From assembly GCA_019894715.1 (NCBI GenBank), contig JAGXOA010000141.1, positions 1 to 36,521 on the forward strand: a stretch of 36,521 nucleotides of DNA, read 5' to 3'. Under the pieces are notes generated by a model that was given only the letters and a program-made list of their open reading frames with translations, ran no database searches and was not told the origin of the DNA. How positions within the stretch are numbered: position 1 is the stretch's first letter; the number at the start of each line of letters is the position of its first letter. This DNA is from Promethearchaeota archaeon. Lineage in GTDB: Archaea > Asgardarchaeota > Lokiarchaeia > Sigyniarchaeales > SOKP01. Both the position numbers and the translations under genes were made by a program. This document shows positions 28,212 to 36,335 of the stretch, one piece after another.

Positions 28212-28736
28212 TCAATTAGATGTTTCCTTAGGCTTAATTTCATTTGATTTTAGTTTCAATGAAAGTTTTGTAAATAATTTTTGAAGATCTAATTGATAAC
28301 CAATTAAAGGAGTTAATCGTACTTCGTTTGTCTTTTCATCTGTTTCAATGTATCCTTCTTCTTGTAAGATTTTTAAATCATCTAAAATATCTTTTTTTTT
28401 CCTTAATTCTTTAATTTCCTTTACTCTAGCAACTCCTGAATTTGAGTAGGTGCATATAATAACACAGAATAATGTTGCAGCTAATTTAGCTTGACCTTTA
28501 AATGGATTTGCAGCAACTAAGTTTGACATTTCATCATCATAAGATATAAACCAATGATCATCTAAGGGATTAAATCTTATGTAAAGGCCAAGAGTCTCAA
28601 TATATTTAGATAAATTTGTTATTAATTCTTGGAAATATATTGATTCATTTCTACCCTTTACTTGAAATACTTCAATTATCTCTTCTTTAGTTGCTCCCAT
28701 CTGATATTTATTTTTCTTTTTACTTAAATAATACAT
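28212..28736 (-). CDS. ScpB/kite-like winged-helix protein
   Basis: 174 aa, last gene of the SMC operon; 'QAKLAATLFCVIICTYSNSGVARVKEIKELRKKKDILDDLKILQEEGYIETDEKTNEVRLTPLIGYQLDL' resembles the second ScpB wHTH. Confidence 0.6.
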   Translation of the reverse strand: MYYLSKKKNKYQMGATKEEIIEVFQVKGRNESIYFQELITNLSKYIETLGLYIRFNPLDDHWFISYDDEMSNLVAANPFKGQAKLAATLFCVIICTYSNSGVARVKEIKELRKKKDILDDLKILQEEGYIETDEKTNEVRLTPLIGYQLDLQKLFTKLSLKLKSNEIKPKETSN

Positions 28737-28768: not shown

Positions 28769-29419
28769 TTATATATACAATATATCTGTTTCATGCTTAT
28801 ATTTTACTTCCTTGATTTGTAATAAATGAAGAAGATATACAAATTTTTCGTAGATTTCAATTTGATTTCCCATGCTATCGAAAATAGAATTAAAAGAACA
28901 AGGCAATTTTTTCTTAATTGTTTCGAGAAAATCATTCATTTTATCAGTAAATTTCTGGGTAGGTAATTCAAGAATAAAATTTTCTTTAACTTTCTCTCTT
29001 TTTAGATGTTCTATCACTATAGGTGGTATTCTATCACGACTTAATTTTATTTGACTTTGTTCTAAAAAATCATAAGAAAGTGATTGAAGTTGAAATGTTT
29101 TTATCCAACATTCATTAAAGAGTTCAATAATTTCTTTATCATCTGGATTAGATTTTAAGTATAAATCAAATTTCTTTTCATCTTCCATAGAATTTAATAA
29201 ATCCTGAAATTCCTTAAATTTATCCTTGAGGAGTTCACAAGCATCAATATATACTTTGGAATACTTATCAATATTAGAAGTATTTAATGTATTTTTTAAA
29301 TCATTAAATATTGGTACAAGTTCTAAATCTAGAAGTGAAACTTTTCCCCTTTTAACATCTTCATATATTTCTCTAATTTTATCTTTGATCTCGTCTGATA
29401 GATCTTTAAATTCAATCAT
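28769..29419 (-). CDS. ScpA-like kleisin
   Basis: 216 aa directly downstream of SMC; C-terminal 'LPCSFNSIFDSMGNQIEIYEKFVYLLHLLQIKEVKYKHETDILYI' fits the ScpA C-terminal wHTH pattern. Confidence 0.7.
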   Translation of the reverse strand: MIEFKDLSDEIKDKIREIYEDVKRGKVSLLDLELVPIFNDLKNTLNTSNIDKYSKVYIDACELLKDKFKEFQDLLNSMEDEKKFDLYLKSNPDDKEIIELFNECWIKTFQLQSLSYDFLEQSQIKLSRDRIPPIVIEHLKREKVKENFILELPTQKFTDKMNDFLETIKKKLPCSFNSIFDSMGNQIEIYEKFVYLLHLLQIKEVKYKHETDILYI

Positions 29420-32400
29420 TTAATACTCTTCATTATCTATAACTTTTGGTTCAAAAACGGTAGATATTTCTTCTTCTCCTACTCTTGCCACTCCTATTAA
29501 TTTTTCCGCCAGTCGATATAATGCATTTGAAGATTTTGGTAAAAACATAATCAATTGTATAGGATTATTCTTAAGAGTAGATTTTATTAATTCATATGAT
29601 ATTTCTGAATTCTTATCATCTAAAAACATAGATGCCTCATCAAACATACATAGAGGAGATGGTTTCATTTCTTGTAAGGAAAGTATTAAAGCAATTGCAA
29701 CCATAGATACTTGTCCTCCGCTTAAGGCAGTACAAGATAGCAATGGTTTGTTTGAAGTTGAAGCTTTAATATCTACTCCAAGTTCTTCAAATTCTCCAAT
29801 TAAAATCAAATCACAATATACTTGTATGTTTGTTTCATTAAACTTATTATTAATTTTATCTCTTAATTCCTTTAAAACATCTTGGAATTTATTATAGTAT
29901 GTTTTTTCTAATTCTTCTTCTGTTTTTATCGCAGCTCCAATATCACTTTCCATATCGTCTTGATTTTTTGATATTTTAGTTAAAGATGACATAATATAGT
30001 CTTTTTCAACTAAAATAGAATCATCTACATCATAATATTTAAGAAGATCTTTATCAATTTCATAGATATCTTCTTGAATCTTCTCAATTACTCTAGGTTT
30101 TATATTCTCTTTAGTTGAATCTCCTATTTGTGAATCAATTCTTTCTAAATCTTGGGTCTTATGAGATAGTTCTTGATTAACCTGATTTAAATTTATACTC
30201 TCTTGTTCTAATTTTAATTCCAATTCAATCCTTTTTTCATCTTGAATACTTTTAGCTTTTATATATTCATTTCTCTTTTCTTTATGATTTTTTATTTTAC
30301 TTTCTATCTCCTTGATATGATTTTCAACTAGCTCTATCTCTTTATAAATATCAAATGCATTTTTATCTGCATTTTTGAATTCTTCCTTTTTTGTTTCATG
30401 TGTTGATTCCAAAATATCTGATTGATTGTGAAGTTGGACTATATCTTGTCTGATACTATTAAGTAATTCTTTATTTTCATCTAATTTCTTTTCCCATTTT
30501 TTCTTTTGTCCATTTAAATCTAAAAGAATCGAAGGTATTTCTTTAATTCTTTCATTCCAACTGAAGAAATCTGGATCTTGTTGATCTTCTAAAGTCTTTA
30601 TTTTTAACTCTAAATTATTTATTTCTTCTAAATTTTCAATATTTAATTTTACTATTTCTCCCTTCTCTACATATAGATTATTTTTCTTAGTTGTAATTCT
30701 TCTTTTTTGCTTGTAATTATAAAATAGATCATTAAATATCTCTTTTTTTTTGTATAGATCTTTCTGAATGGTATCTAATTTAGATATTTTTTCTTTTAAT
30801 TCTGAGATTTTACTATTATAATTATCGATATCTATTTCTAATTGTTCAACTTGTTCTTTCTGAGTACCAGTACTTAATAATCCTTTCAATTTTTTAAGAT
30901 AAGGAGTTTCAAAAACATATTTATAAGAAATAATTTGTTCTCCCTTTAATGTTACACATCTACCTTTAAAATTAAATTTTTTATAGATGTCTTTTCCTGT
31001 TTTATAATCATTTACGACTAAACTATTCTTAACCTTGGAATAAATAACTTTTTTTACATTGATATCCATAGTTTTTATTAAATCAGCAAGATATCCAATC
31101 ACTCCTTCTGCTTCAAAATCCATTAATGGCTTAATTGGTGTTTTCTTAGGAACATAAATATTACAATAGGCATTATACTTATTCTTTAATCTTTTTAATA
31201 AGTCTAGCGTATCCCAATCATCTGCAACAAAACTATAGAGTAACTTTTCACCTAAAATTGATTCAATTGCATAGCTAAGCTCATCATCATATTTAATATA
31301 GTTAATAATTGGCCCAATGACTTTAAGGCCTCGTTTTTTAATCTCATCTTTTAAAATATTTACTTCAGTTGGTAAGATTAACTTTTGATGATTTAATGAA
31401 CTTTGTAGGCCTTTAAATTGTCTTAATACTTTTGTTCTCTGAATTTCTAATCGTTTTAAATTTTCTTCTAAGCTAAAAATCTCTCCTGTCTTTTTCTTTA
31501 GCTCAAAATCAAATTCACGTATTAAGTCTGTCGAAGGATTTTCTAAAAACCATTTATTCATATCTAATTTATGGTTAATATCTTTATAACTTTGGAATAA
31601 TTGATCAATCTGACTTTCTAAATCTTTAATTAATATTTCATTATCATTATTGTTTTTTTGTAGATTGTCTCTTTTAAATGTTAATTCATTATATTTATCT
31701 AAAAAATGTTTATTGGCTTCAATTCTGCTCATTAATTCTTTTTGTTCTTTAAATAGATTTTCAATCTCATTATCTATTTTTTCTTTTTCCGTTCTAATAT
31801 AATTTAAATCATTTAGTATTTTTTCATTTTGTTTAGTTTGTTTTTTTATTTGTTTTTTAAGATTTTCAATCTTTTCAGAAATTTCATCTAGCTCTTGTTT
31901 CATTTTTACCTTTTCATTTTGCCACTTTTTGATTTTTTTGGAAATATCTTCTTTTTTATAATTATTTTCACCCAATTCTCTGGAGAGGTTGTTGATCTCA
32001 TCCTCAATACTATTTATTTCCAAATTAATTCTTTGAATTTGTTTAAAATTCAAATCCTGATCTTGTTTGTTTTTATGAATTTGATTCTTTAATTTTCTTA
32101 CTTCTTCAGTTAAATCTATTATCTCCAAAAGTAGTTTTTGTCTATTAGCTTGTAATAATTCATCTTCAAAGTCATTTTTTTTACTAATTAATTCCTTCTT
32201 TTTTTCTAATCTTTCTAGTTTTGGTTTAAGTAAGTCCATACTTGTACTAAGTGAATTCTTTCTCGTCTTAAGTGATATTAATTCATTATTTAAAGTTTGA
32301 ATATCTATTTTTTTTTCTAGGATTTCTTCCCTCAATTCTTTTAATCCTATTCCTTGCTCGAGAAAAGCACATAATTCTGTTGGTTTTAAATCCTTAATTG

Positions 32401-32884
32401 CATCAATATGTCCTTGACTTACAAATGCAAAATGATTATTTGGATTATAATTTAAACTAATTATTATATCTTGAATTACATTTGTTTTAACTCTAACAAA
32501 ATCCTTAGAACCTTTATCTTTTAATGAATAATAAGGAGAATGATCTTTTACCACAGTACGTCTGATCTCTATTGATTCTTTTCCATTTTTTATAGTCACT
32601 TCCACCATTGCATGATCTTGACCATGTCTTATAAAATCTGACCATTTTGGATATCTTAAATCACGTTCATTACTTCCCAAAACAAATTTTAATCCTTGAA
32701 AGATTGAAGTTTTACCAGACCAATTAGGCCCTAATACAATAATAAATTTTGAATCATCAAAATTAACTTCATCTCTTTTAAAAGATAGGAAATTCTCCAA
32801 TATTACTTTAGTAATGTGAACCTTTCCTTTTAGTAAAAATTTATCTTTCTTTTGTGCTGATTGTTCTTGTAATTGAACATTCAA
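29420..32884 (-). CDS. SMC-family ATPase with hinge (divergent)
   Basis: 1154 aa; Walker A 'GPNWSGKTS', Q-loop 'FVSQGHIDAI', long coiled coils, hinge near 'KVIGPIINYIKYDDELSYAIESILGEKLLYSFVADDWDTLDLL', signature 'LSGGQ', Walker B 'LCMFDEASMFLDDKNSE'. Confidence 0.93.
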   Translation of the reverse strand: MNVQLQEQSAQKKDKFLLKGKVHITKVILENFLSFKRDEVNFDDSKFIIVLGPNWSGKTSIFQGLKFVLGSNERDLRYPKWSDFIRHGQDHAMVEVTIKNGKESIEIRRTVVKDHSPYYSLKDKGSKDFVRVKTNVIQDIIISLNYNPNNHFAFVSQGHIDAIKDLKPTELCAFLEQGIGLKELREEILEKKIDIQTLNNELISLKTRKNSLSTSMDLLKPKLERLEKKKELISKKNDFEDELLQANRQKLLLEIIDLTEEVRKLKNQIHKNKQDQDLNFKQIQRINLEINSIEDEINNLSRELGENNYKKEDISKKIKKWQNEKVKMKQELDEISEKIENLKKQIKKQTKQNEKILNDLNYIRTEKEKIDNEIENLFKEQKELMSRIEANKHFLDKYNELTFKRDNLQKNNNDNEILIKDLESQIDQLFQSYKDINHKLDMNKWFLENPSTDLIREFDFELKKKTGEIFSLEENLKRLEIQRTKVLRQFKGLQSSLNHQKLILPTEVNILKDEIKKRGLKVIGPIINYIKYDDELSYAIESILGEKLLYSFVADDWDTLDLLKRLKNKYNAYCNIYVPKKTPIKPLMDFEAEGVIGYLADLIKTMDINVKKVIYSKVKNSLVVNDYKTGKDIYKKFNFKGRCVTLKGEQIISYKYVFETPYLKKLKGLLSTGTQKEQVEQLEIDIDNYNSKISELKEKISKLDTIQKDLYKKKEIFNDLFYNYKQKRRITTKKNNLYVEKGEIVKLNIENLEEINNLELKIKTLEDQQDPDFFSWNERIKEIPSILLDLNGQKKKWEKKLDENKELLNSIRQDIVQLHNQSDILESTHETKKEEFKNADKNAFDIYKEIELVENHIKEIESKIKNHKEKRNEYIKAKSIQDEKRIELELKLEQESINLNQVNQELSHKTQDLERIDSQIGDSTKENIKPRVIEKIQEDIYEIDKDLLKYYDVDDSILVEKDYIMSSLTKISKNQDDMESDIGAAIKTEEELEKTYYNKFQDVLKELRDKINNKFNETNIQVYCDLILIGEFEELGVDIKASTSNKPLLSCTALSGGQVSMVAIALILSLQEMKPSPLCMFDEASMFLDDKNSEISYELIKSTLKNNPIQLIMFLPKSSNALYRLAEKLIGVARVGEEEISTVFEPKVIDNEEY

Positions 32885-32904: not shown

Positions 32905-34134
32905 TTATTTTCCAAACGACTTTTTAATAAGATCAATTTTTTTTTTTGCTTTTTCTAAACTTATTTGTGCTTTTCCTGGTGGATCATTTAAAATGAAAGG
33001 ATATTTTGATAATAGTTTCCTATCAAGTTCTTCTAAATGTTCATTTTTAAAGAGTTTATCAATTATAATTACTAAATGATTATAATTTTCTGAAGCGGCA
33101 TTTTCATATAATTGATTTAGCATAAATTCAGAATATCTTTCTGACTTGATATTATCAATTAGATTTTTTACATCTTTACTATGATTACTTCCATTATTTG
33201 AATTATTATTATGATATATATGTTTAATTAACCCATTTTTTTTTTCTTTGTGATTATTATAATTATTTTTATGAAATGATGGAATAAATTCTCCTAATTC
33301 GATTATATTTTTTATAATCTCTGTAATTTCATTACTTTTTTTATTTAATTCTGAATTTAAATGATGTCTTAGAATAGCAATATCTATTAGTTTTTTAATT
33401 TCTTTTACTTCCCAGTTTTCTGTTATATCTGTTATTAGATCTATATCAAAAGTGATTTTGTTATTTTTTTCCATAAATGATTTTAAAATTTGAATTCGCT
33501 CAATTTTATTAATTATTGGTACTTTTATTAGAAAATCAAAAACTTCGAAAATTTCCCCTGAATTTTTTACAATTTCATTGTAATCATGATTTATCCAAAT
33601 TAACAAGATATTATTTTTTAAAAGTGTCTTTAAATTCTTTTTCTCGCGATAATAATAAACAAATTTATTTAATAAGTTTTCATCTCCATAAATCTCATTA
33701 AGTTTATGAGTTTGATCAATTAGAAGTATCTTTTTCTTTTTATTATCTACACTATCTTCTTCACTCTCATCAGTAGATTTAGAATTAAGAAGATTATCAA
33801 TATCACTTAAGATCTCAAAAAAATTTTCAAAAAATTCACTTGAATTTTCAATAATTGTTGACTCTTTTAGTTGTATTAATTTTACAAAGAAATTTGATGA
33901 AATTACATTTAAATAGTCTAAAATGTCTGTGCCTGGAAGGATATTTATTAGAAGACTTCCCTTTAAATCAACATAGCTATTTATTTCTAAATCCTTTGAA
34001 TCAGATAAGACTAGTTTTAAATAGTTTATGATTTCTTTATATTTTTCTCGAAGAAAAATATCTTCTTCTTTTAATTTTATATCCACTGGATTTACAATAT
34101 TAATATATTTTAACATTGTTTTTTTTACAGTCAT
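32905..34134 (-). CDS. Degenerate AAA+ ATPase-like protein (probable pseudo-ATPase), first gene of the SMC operon
   Basis: 409 aa; AAA+ landmarks in order: 'LKGSLLINILPGTDILDYLNVISSNFFVKLIQL' (Walker A position, GKT lost), 'KKKILLIDQTHKLNE' (Walker B position, DQ for DE), 'NNILLIWINHDYNEI' (sensor 1-like), 'FDFLIKVPIINKIERIQILKSFM', lid-like 'DIDLITDITENWEVKEIKKLIDIAILRHH'. Confidence 0.7.
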   Translation of the reverse strand: MTVKKTMLKYINIVNPVDIKLKEEDIFLREKYKEIINYLKLVLSDSKDLEINSYVDLKGSLLINILPGTDILDYLNVISSNFFVKLIQLKESTIIENSSEFFENFFEILSDIDNLLNSKSTDESEEDSVDNKKKKILLIDQTHKLNEIYGDENLLNKFVYYYREKKNLKTLLKNNILLIWINHDYNEIVKNSGEIFEVFDFLIKVPIINKIERIQILKSFMEKNNKITFDIDLITDITENWEVKEIKKLIDIAILRHHLNSELNKKSNEITEIIKNIIELGEFIPSFHKNNYNNHKEKKNGLIKHIYHNNNSNNGSNHSKDVKNLIDNIKSERYSEFMLNQLYENAASENYNHLVIIIDKLFKNEHLEELDRKLLSKYPFILNDPPGKAQISLEKAKKKIDLIKKSFGK

Positions 34135-34661: not shown

Positions 34662-34748
34662 ATGGATTTAAGTTTTTTATATACATTATTTTTTTTCTTA
34701 GCATTGATAATCCTCATTGCTCTTGGTTTTAAATACGGTCTTACTTAG
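34662..34748 (+). CDS. Possible single-TM micropeptide
   Basis: 28 aa MDLSFLYTLFFFLALIILIALGFKYGLT, preceded by 'ttggagtgatataaa' (RBS-like); 3' end overlaps the convergent arsR stop. Confidence 0.45.
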   Translation: MDLSFLYTLFFFLALIILIALGFKYGLT

Positions 34749-35142
34749 TATCTTTTATATTTTTTTTAAGTAATTCAAGATAATAAACTATTTTTTCATC
34801 AGTTACCTCATAATGAGTGAATTTTCCCTTTTTCCATCCTCTAATAAGCCCAATTTTCTCTAGTTCCCTTAAATGATGTGAGATTGTGGATTGAGATTTA
34901 TCAAGAATTGCTTCTAATTCACATACACAATAATTTTTAATCCTTAAGCTCTGAATGATCTTTAACCGTTCTTGATTGCCCAGAACAGAACAGAAATTAA
35001 AAACCTCCTTAAAAGATTTCTTTTTATTTAGTTCTATTCCAATTTTTTGTAATTCATTAAAATATTGAATTATATCAACATCATTCAAATCAACGCAACT
35101 TTCCAATGTCTCTATGATAATATTTTTCCTTTCTCTATTCAA
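34741..35142 (-). CDS. arsR: ArsR family transcriptional regulator
   Basis: 133 aa; 'VFNFCSVLGNQERLKIIQSLRIKNYCVCELEAILDKSQSTISHHLRELEKIGLIRGWKKGKFTHYEVTD' with the CVC metalloid-sensing-type motif; divergent to acr3. Confidence 0.92.
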   Translation of the reverse strand: MNRERKNIIIETLESCVDLNDVDIIQYFNELQKIGIELNKKKSFKEVFNFCSVLGNQERLKIIQSLRIKNYCVCELEAILDKSQSTISHHLRELEKIGLIRGWKKGKFTHYEVTDEKIVYYLELLKKNIKDTK

Positions 35143-35288: not shown

Positions 35289-36335
35289 ATGGAAAAAATG
35301 AAAGAAAAAGATTTAGATAAAGAAGAGAAGAAATTTGGAATCTTTGAAAAATATTTAACTCTTTGGGTAGGAATATGTATAATTATAGGTATTTCTCTCT
35401 CCCAAATATTACCAAAAATGAGCAAATTTATTAATTCTATGAATGTAGGGGGAATTTCAATTCCTATAGGTATATGCCTCTTTTTAATGATGTATCCTGC
35501 AATGTTAAATCTTCAGTTTTCAGAATTAAAAAAGTTAAGTAAAAATCCAAAACCAATACTAATAACTCTTATTTCGAATTGGTTAGTTGCTCCATTTATT
35601 GGATTAGCTTTAGCATCTATTTTTTTACAAGGTCATGAACAATTAATTTTTGCAATTATATTATTATCAAGTTCTCCATGCACAGCAATGGTTTTAGTTT
35701 GGGGTTATATGGCTAAAGGAAATCAAGAACAGAATGTAGTGAATACAAGTTTAAATACTATAACAATTATATTCTTGTATATTCCAATGGTTTCTTTATT
35801 ATCAGGTATTCAAAATGTACCCATAGATTGGGTTCTATTAGTTGTCTCATTAGTTTTTTTCATAGGAATTCCTCTATTTTTAGGTATATTTTCAAAAAAA
35901 TTGATCATCAAATCAAAAGGAGAAAACTGGTTTCAAAAGACTTATAGACCTTTAATAAGTAAAATCTCAATTTTAGCTTTATTATTCACTCTGATTATTT
36001 TATTTTCATTAAATGGTGATGTATTGATAAATAATCCTGATCTAATGTTGTTAATTTCAATTCCACTAATAATTGGTTTTGTTATTGTTGTGAGTTATAA
36101 TATATTAATCACCAAAATCTTCAAATTAAAATATCGTGAAGCAATCATTACTGTCATAATTGGTTCATCAAGTCATTTTGAAATTGCTATCGCCACAGCA
36201 ACAACTATGTTTGGGATAGGATCAATCGCTGCGCTAGGGACAACAATGGGGTTATTCTGGGAAGTCCCTATAATGCTTGGCCTTGTATATTTAGGAAAAT
36301 ATCTTAAAAAAAGAAATTTCTGGAAATCTGAATAG
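35289..36335 (+). CDS. acr3: Arsenite efflux permease, ACR3 family (BASS superfamily)
   Basis: 348 aa, about 10 TM; 'SSSPCTAMVLVWGYMAKGNQEQNVVNTSLNT' matches the ACR3 Cys motif region; adjacent arsR. Confidence 0.88.
   Translation: MEKMKEKDLDKEEKKFGIFEKYLTLWVGICIIIGISLSQILPKMSKFINSMNVGGISIPIGICLFLMMYPAMLNLQFSELKKLSKNPKPILITLISNWLVAPFIGLALASIFLQGHEQLIFAIILLSSSPCTAMVLVWGYMAKGNQEQNVVNTSLNTITIIFLYIPMVSLLSGIQNVPIDWVLLVVSLVFFIGIPLFLGIFSKKLIIKSKGENWFQKTYRPLISKISILALLFTLIILFSLNGDVLINNPDLMLLISIPLIIGFVIVVSYNILITKIFKLKYREAIITVIIGSSSHFEIAIATATTMFGIGSIAALGTTMGLFWEVPIMLGLVYLGKYLKKRNFWKSE

Follow-up and report, generated by a model that had tools for sequence, protein, structure and literature searches.

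What does a gene for an AAA+ protein without a recognizable ATP site do at the head of an operon encoding an SMC complex? The question is raised by the window, i.e., the whole 36,521-nucleotide stretch of DNA analyzed here, which belongs to an Asgard archaeon. No known prokaryotes are more closely related to eukaryotes than the Asgard archaea. The gene, P0001, had been placed at 32905-34134 with a product of 409 aa by a first-pass annotation based on the letters alone. This reading is exact, the coding strand being the minus strand, and the coordinates also bear out the 20 bp gap to the SMC gene that it reported, counted from the P0001 stop codon to a TTG start at 32884. The features discussed below are as follows.

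28212..28736, minus strand: ScpB-like kite (P0004), 174 aa (PF04079 in relatives)
28769..29419, minus strand: divergent ScpA-like kleisin (P0003), 216 aa, with a C-terminal winged helix (weak homology)
29420..32884, minus strand: AAA-linked SMC ATPase, second SMC type (P0002), 1154 aa, TTG start (motifs, domains, and tree)
32905..34134, minus strand: AAA+-derived pseudo-ATPase (P0001), 409 aa, ATG at 34134, probably the first gene of the operon (AAA+ by profile and predicted structure)
32908..33144, minus strand: conserved helical C-terminal domain of P0001, residues 331-409 (profile searches)
33355..33540, minus strand: SRH remnant without arginine finger, and AAA lid helices, residues ~199-260 (alignment and model)
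33712..33729, minus strand: degenerate Walker B, I136-L-L-I-D-Q141, with Gln for the catalytic Glu (sequence comparison)
33922..33936, minus strand: degenerate Walker A site, P67-G-T-D-I71 (family alignment and AlphaFold2 model)

The closest same-strand gene upstream of P0001 encodes an ArsR-type regulator (34741-35142, minus strand) and ends ~600 bp away, hence P0001 is probably where the operon starts. A scan for bacterial promoters and terminators gave matches no commoner than in shuffled sequences. Beside the ArsR-type gene lies a divergent gene of the sodium/bile-acid symporter family (35289-36335, plus strand).

As a single query, P0001 matched no Pfam or NCBIfam family. A profile built from 31 homologs, on the other hand, matches the D1 domain of Cdc48/p97 with E=5e-33. 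The less diverged homologs of family f8 (Asgard families are given as f codes, f1 being Lokiarchaeota) match Cdc48/p97 with 4e-38; in this alignment GPPGTGKT is set against GPxGTDF, and the Walker B DE falls on positions without a conserved DE. The AlphaFold2 model of P0001, made from 48 sequences, has a pLDDT of 77.5 and a pTM of 0.63 and is weak only at residues 119-131 and in the linker at 291-320. Foldseek aligns this model with the AAA domains of Msp1, p97, and PAN (E down to 2.6e-8, probability 1.00, TM to target up to 0.70). According to the model, P0001 is an AAA+ fold with a lid, to which a disordered linker joins a C-terminal domain built of helices. Structure prediction, which the first-pass annotation had proposed as a check, thus recovered the AAA+ fold and no contrary outcome, and the profile and Foldseek matches uphold the AAA+ order and spacing of elements that it had read from the sequence.

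The catalytic motifs within this fold are lost. In the AlphaFold2 model, PGTDILDYL lies between the first strand (residues 60-64) and the first helix (71-82) of the AAA+ core, the place of GPPGTGKT, in agreement with the lost P-loop noted earlier. The Walker B motif reads ILLIDQTH (residues 136-143), as had also been reported, and the SRH has no arginine finger (EVFDFLIKVP, with EVFDF in place of RxGRFD). In the SRH remnant and lid, none of 48 Lokiarchaeota sequences departs from T238, W241, or L249, and close to the sensor-1 position N182 hardly varies across Lokiarchaeota.

The loss is shared by the whole family. A motif census covered 81 distinct members, 78 of them of the SMC-operon type, 73 with residues at the Walker A site. 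None of these 73 SMC-operon relatives carries GK[S/T]; the three census members that do (3/81) are two ordinary AAA ATPases of the same genome as the window and one free-standing f27 protein. All 73 have I, F, L, or V at the Lys position, and nearly all have D or E in place of the P-loop Gly that precedes it. The replacement motif, G-T-D-[I/F], is conserved, and G68 and D70 are invariant among the 48 Lokiarchaeota sequences. Since D70 directly precedes the helix that starts at residue 71 in the model, it probably caps the former P-loop helix. Walker B has become mostly NQ in the Lokiarchaeota relatives (LLIDQ in the window); one relative, L061, keeps DE in Walker B, yet is without a P-loop. 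A sequencing error or decay in a single genome is therefore ruled out by the family-wide loss. Homologs with an intact P-loop, which had been raised as a possible objection, do exist, as diverged homologs in other Asgard families and not among close relatives; the loss is thus lineage-wide and not genome-specific. The dN/dS ratio of the pseudo-ATPase is 0.15-0.25 in eight pairs, compared with 0.10-0.20 for the SMC, which indicates purifying selection. What is seen is selection for the new state of the pseudo-ATPase, rather than drift. Collectively, the profile, the Foldseek matches, and the motif census support the view of P0001 as a dead AAA+ fold.

The tie to SMC is conserved, too. A search with the single protein found homologs of the pseudo-ATPase in 81 of 147 relatives, a count in which the genomes without a match include incomplete ones and in which MAG quality bounds absence; in genome G057, for example, the SMC contig ends within the SMC gene. 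The pseudo-ATPase gene is the immediate upstream neighbor of SMC in every one of the 54 named Lokiarchaeota loci (gap <60 bp in 38 of them, with some gaps up to ~300 bp), and kleisin and kite genes follow SMC in most. The same holds for the upstream position in 22/22 loci of f2, f3, f4, and f8. The linkage for which the first-pass annotation had proposed a neighborhood survey is thus unbroken in every locus examined. Operon linkage of this kind shows shared use, not binding.

Which SMC complex is this? The motifs of P0002 are intact (Walker A GPNWSGKT, signature LSGGQ, Walker B FDE), and both SMC_N and SMC_hinge are over the cut-off. The kleisin gene follows without a gap, and the kite gene 32 bp further on. 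The kleisin profile of P0003 has 4i99_C and 5xns_C as its two best PDB matches, at E=0.007 and 0.03; both are chains of the C-terminal winged helix of ScpA. In its model, P0003 starts with helices and ends in a winged helix, and its top Foldseek matches are Smc5/6 chains, at a nonsignificant level. These data weakly suggest that P0003 is a very divergent ScpA-like kleisin. The earlier assignment of a downstream ScpA is weakly favored insofar as the best PDB matches are C-terminal domains of ScpA, with the qualification that the protein is very divergent and the E values are modest. P0004 itself has no PF04079 match; five of 24 kite orthologs do (best 2.8e-13), and the predicted kite identity of P0004 is confirmed through these relatives.

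In a tree of SMC heads and hinges, the split (SH-aLRT 99) between the 21 AAA-linked SMCs and the 18 canonical Asgard SMCs has no exception. Judged by this tree, the AAA-linked SMC is a second paralog, separate from the canonical Asgard clade. Both kinds were present in 30 of the 36 genomes tested, and the canonical SMC genes come with a ScpA and a ScpB of their own, each with a direct Pfam match. In several Asgard families the gene ahead of the canonical SMC-ScpA-ScpB operon often encodes a Roadblock/LC7-domain protein (by Pfam in f17 and f8; L176:3014-3376:+ and L183:7587-7949:-). The canonical-type SMC of the genome under study (contig C48, L175:4359-8780:+) is 1473 aa long, ~280 aa above the usual length, and no ScpA or ScpB was recognized beside it. 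Canonical SMCs are often ~1480 aa in Lokiarchaeota, and proteins of 1480-1500 aa occur in many f1 and f2 genomes. The AAA-linked SMC of f17 is only ~830-840 aa long, with a coiled coil far shorter than that of usual SMCs (L101:6739-9261:-, L102:6095-8590:-, and L120:8791-11289:+). A further divergent SMC type, of 1071-1080 aa, is found in f20 and f22, where it is followed by two small genes and lacks an AAA neighbor (L117:5680-8895:+ and L118:1290-4532:+).

Across Asgard archaea the slot upstream of SMC holds AAA proteins in different stages of decay. In one genome, of f26, it is occupied by an AAA+ protein with all motifs (GPPGTGKTT, ILFIDEFD, RRFD). The P-loop is kept and the Walker B Glu replaced in f17 (LFIDN), f7 (LFLDN), and f5 (LLIEN); the f19 protein keeps GKT and has LLED, in an ORF that looks truncated at the P-loop. 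The slot proteins of f1-f4 and f8 are without a P-loop. Finally, the proteins of f10 and f12 are mere stumps (276 and 315 aa), whose recognizable parts are limited to AAA_lid_3 (2e-7 and 2e-5) and the C-terminal domain. The lid and the C-terminal domain are what the stumps keep, which suggests that the retained function resides there and not in the ATP site; this is the best clue to where P0001 acts. In an AAA tree without the motif columns, the P-loop-less group forms one clade (93/95; 99/97 with the P-loop columns), which fits one main loss. The P-loop-bearing forms (f17, f5, f7, f19, and f26) are poorly resolved in this tree and very diverged, and their putative orthology is drawn from synteny, ScpB, and this tree, and for f17 also from a marginal C-terminal match (E=2.7e-4). 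The operon-type ScpB in f5, f7, f19 and, weakly, f26 supports one operon lineage. The SMCs of f5, f7, and f19, however, group nearer the canonical clade, and recruitment may have been separate there.

Some candidates were discarded in this comparison. Genome G075, coded f4, had seemed to carry an intact AAA within the order; both of its SMCs (L103 and L179) fall inside f17 in the tree, and the MAG is probably contaminated or misassigned. A common N-terminus of f17 and f5/f7 was a likeness by eye without HMM support. Two neighboring observations concern other AAA genes. Directly upstream of the stump in f12 (L107:5502-8997:-) and f10 (L108:3978-7290:+) lie a MoxR-type AAA gene (AAA_5, AAA_3, AAA_lid_2) and a VWA-domain gene; a live MoxR-type AAA may have replaced the lost one there. 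In f27, an AAA+ with all motifs (L106:168-1418:+) groups near the operon AAAs and apart from ordinary AAA ATPases, and adjoins a metallo-beta-lactamase-like gene (named by eye) rather than SMC.

Of 228 Asgard genomes, 111 carry the C-terminal domain (~76 aa), each as a single copy, and nearly all of these belong to f1-f4, f8, f10, f12, and f17. A PDB search with it gave no significant match, and ~165 other archaeal genomes gave only partial matches of ~20 bits. It is thus a domain without known relatives, not found beyond Asgard among the archaeal genomes sampled. The winged helix-like C-terminus in f5, f7, and f19 looks alike by eye, and was rejected as the same domain for want of hhalign support. 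Neither a second protein with the domain nor a free-standing copy was found in the Asgard genomes searched. These results extend the first-pass picture, in which the graded erosion of the AAA module across the phylum, the conserved C-terminal domain, and the status of this SMC as a second one beside a canonical SMC had gone unnoticed.

In our view, P0001 reasonably probably serves an Asgard-specific second SMC-kleisin-kite complex, either as a non-catalytic subunit or as a cofactor dedicated to it. The first-pass reading, a dead AAA+ subunit that might load, regulate, or scaffold the complex, is supported in part. Around the observed fold, motif loss, conserved operon, selection, and graded decay, a course of events can be proposed. 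The ancestor would have been an AAA+ ATPase of the Cdc48/Msp1/PAN kind, encoded in the same operon and presumably acting on the complex with ATP. The nucleotide site was then lost in Lokiarchaeota, the sister families, and f8 and replaced by a fixed G-T-D-[I/F] turn, which would cap the former P-loop helix. The present protein would be a rigid body, docked through its lid and C-terminal domain on either the SMC heads or the kleisin-kite unit; we infer such physical binding, and with it an effect on loading or residence. Such docking would govern the site or the timing of loading or of residence on DNA, with the SMC still an ATPase in its own right. A bolder version, put forward tentatively and with less than even confidence, is that P0001 represents a third kind of accessory subunit besides kites and hawks, in ancestral Asgard archaea an ATP-driven AAA+ loader or remodeler of an SMC complex and now structural through its lid and C-terminal domain. 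As part of that version, decay would have taken first the Walker B Glu, then the P-loop, and then the whole core.

Other explanations share part of the evidence. P0001 might act only transiently, as a loader or targeting factor that brings the SMC complex to a site on the chromosome or to another protein, and be no stable subunit. Its place as first gene of the operon, the basic disordered linker and basic C-terminal domain (pI 9.8 and 8.8), and an AAA+ ancestry suggestive of a remodeler or loader are consistent with this; however, the Pfam search recognized no DNA-binding domain in P0001, and the lack of a significant PDB match for the C-terminal domain also speaks against it, leaving the idea unlikely. 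We regard as unlikely, too, and with lower confidence still, that P0001 is the dead partner in a mixed AAA+ ring in which an active AAA+ encoded elsewhere hydrolyzes ATP, as the first-pass annotation had offered among its readings. The AAA+ fold is retained, the genome has ~20 AAA-domain matches, and a MoxR-type AAA with a VWA gene stands beside the f10/f12 stump; nevertheless, the arginine finger is also lost, and f10 and f12 have deleted most of the AAA core that a ring subunit needs. An active paralog with the same C-terminal domain was sought in the genome and is absent, and no second protein of these genomes has the domain, so that the proposal has found no specific support.

That P0001 is coexpressed with the SMC complex and functionally separate from it would agree with gene order being the sole tie and with SMC gaps that in some loci reach ~300 bp; a linkage unbroken in 76 loci over deep divergence, for a single-copy gene with no free-standing copy seen, makes this very improbable. 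Least credible of all is an ATPase that still works with an unusual nucleotide site. The kept fold and the nearly invariant N182 could be read in that way, but Lys, Walker B Glu, and arginine finger are all absent, and an acidic residue occupies the P-loop Gly position.

The data suggest the conversion of a one-time motor into a fixed, non-catalytic partner of a second SMC machine in Lokiarchaeota and related Asgard archaea. Asgard cells diversified their SMC complexes and tied one to an AAA+ machine, an association spread over several families, which bears on the route from bacterial-type Smc-ScpAB to cohesin and condensin. The successive forms found in living species make the turn from motor to scaffold testable, and for binding studies the C-terminal domain offers a small, concrete target. 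Related literature deals with an SMC-related family specific to archaea (PMC9389158) and with the replacement of kites by hawks, in a study that also searched HEAT proteins of Lokiarchaeota (PMC5228436); an archaeal survey in which the kite is often absent mentions no such AAA+-derived gene (PMC7055376). The literature searched, subscription papers and preprints aside, describes no SMC complex with such an AAA+ subunit, and the same statement in the first-pass annotation is upheld within that scope.

The operon resembles Smc-ScpA-ScpB in that an SMC with intact motifs is encoded together with kleisin-like and kite-like genes, and differs in having a second SMC paralog, a very divergent kleisin, and an extra, AAA+-descended first gene. 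Wadjet/Jet and MukBEF likewise combine SMC, kleisin, and kite, with a further gene in some; unlike Wadjet/Jet, the operon has no nuclease subunit. PADLOC has no model matching P0001, P0003, or P0004 and takes P0002 only as a general SMC relative, and a defense system was ruled out on the unmatched three. As with kite and Hawk subunits, a non-SMC product is tied to an SMC-kleisin operon, but the predicted fold of P0001 is AAA+, neither a tandem winged helix nor HEAT repeats. With Cdc48/p97, Msp1, and PAN it shares the fold, the order of core elements, and the lid, whereas it is without the Walker A Lys, the Walker B Glu, and the arginine finger and has an added C-terminal domain. Delta-prime of the clamp loader and Orc2/Orc3 keep the AAA+ fold as a scaffold after loss of the ATP site, and the rings to which they belong also contain live AAA+ subunits. 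In the operon, by contrast, the live ATPase next door is the SMC, an ATPase of the ABC type.
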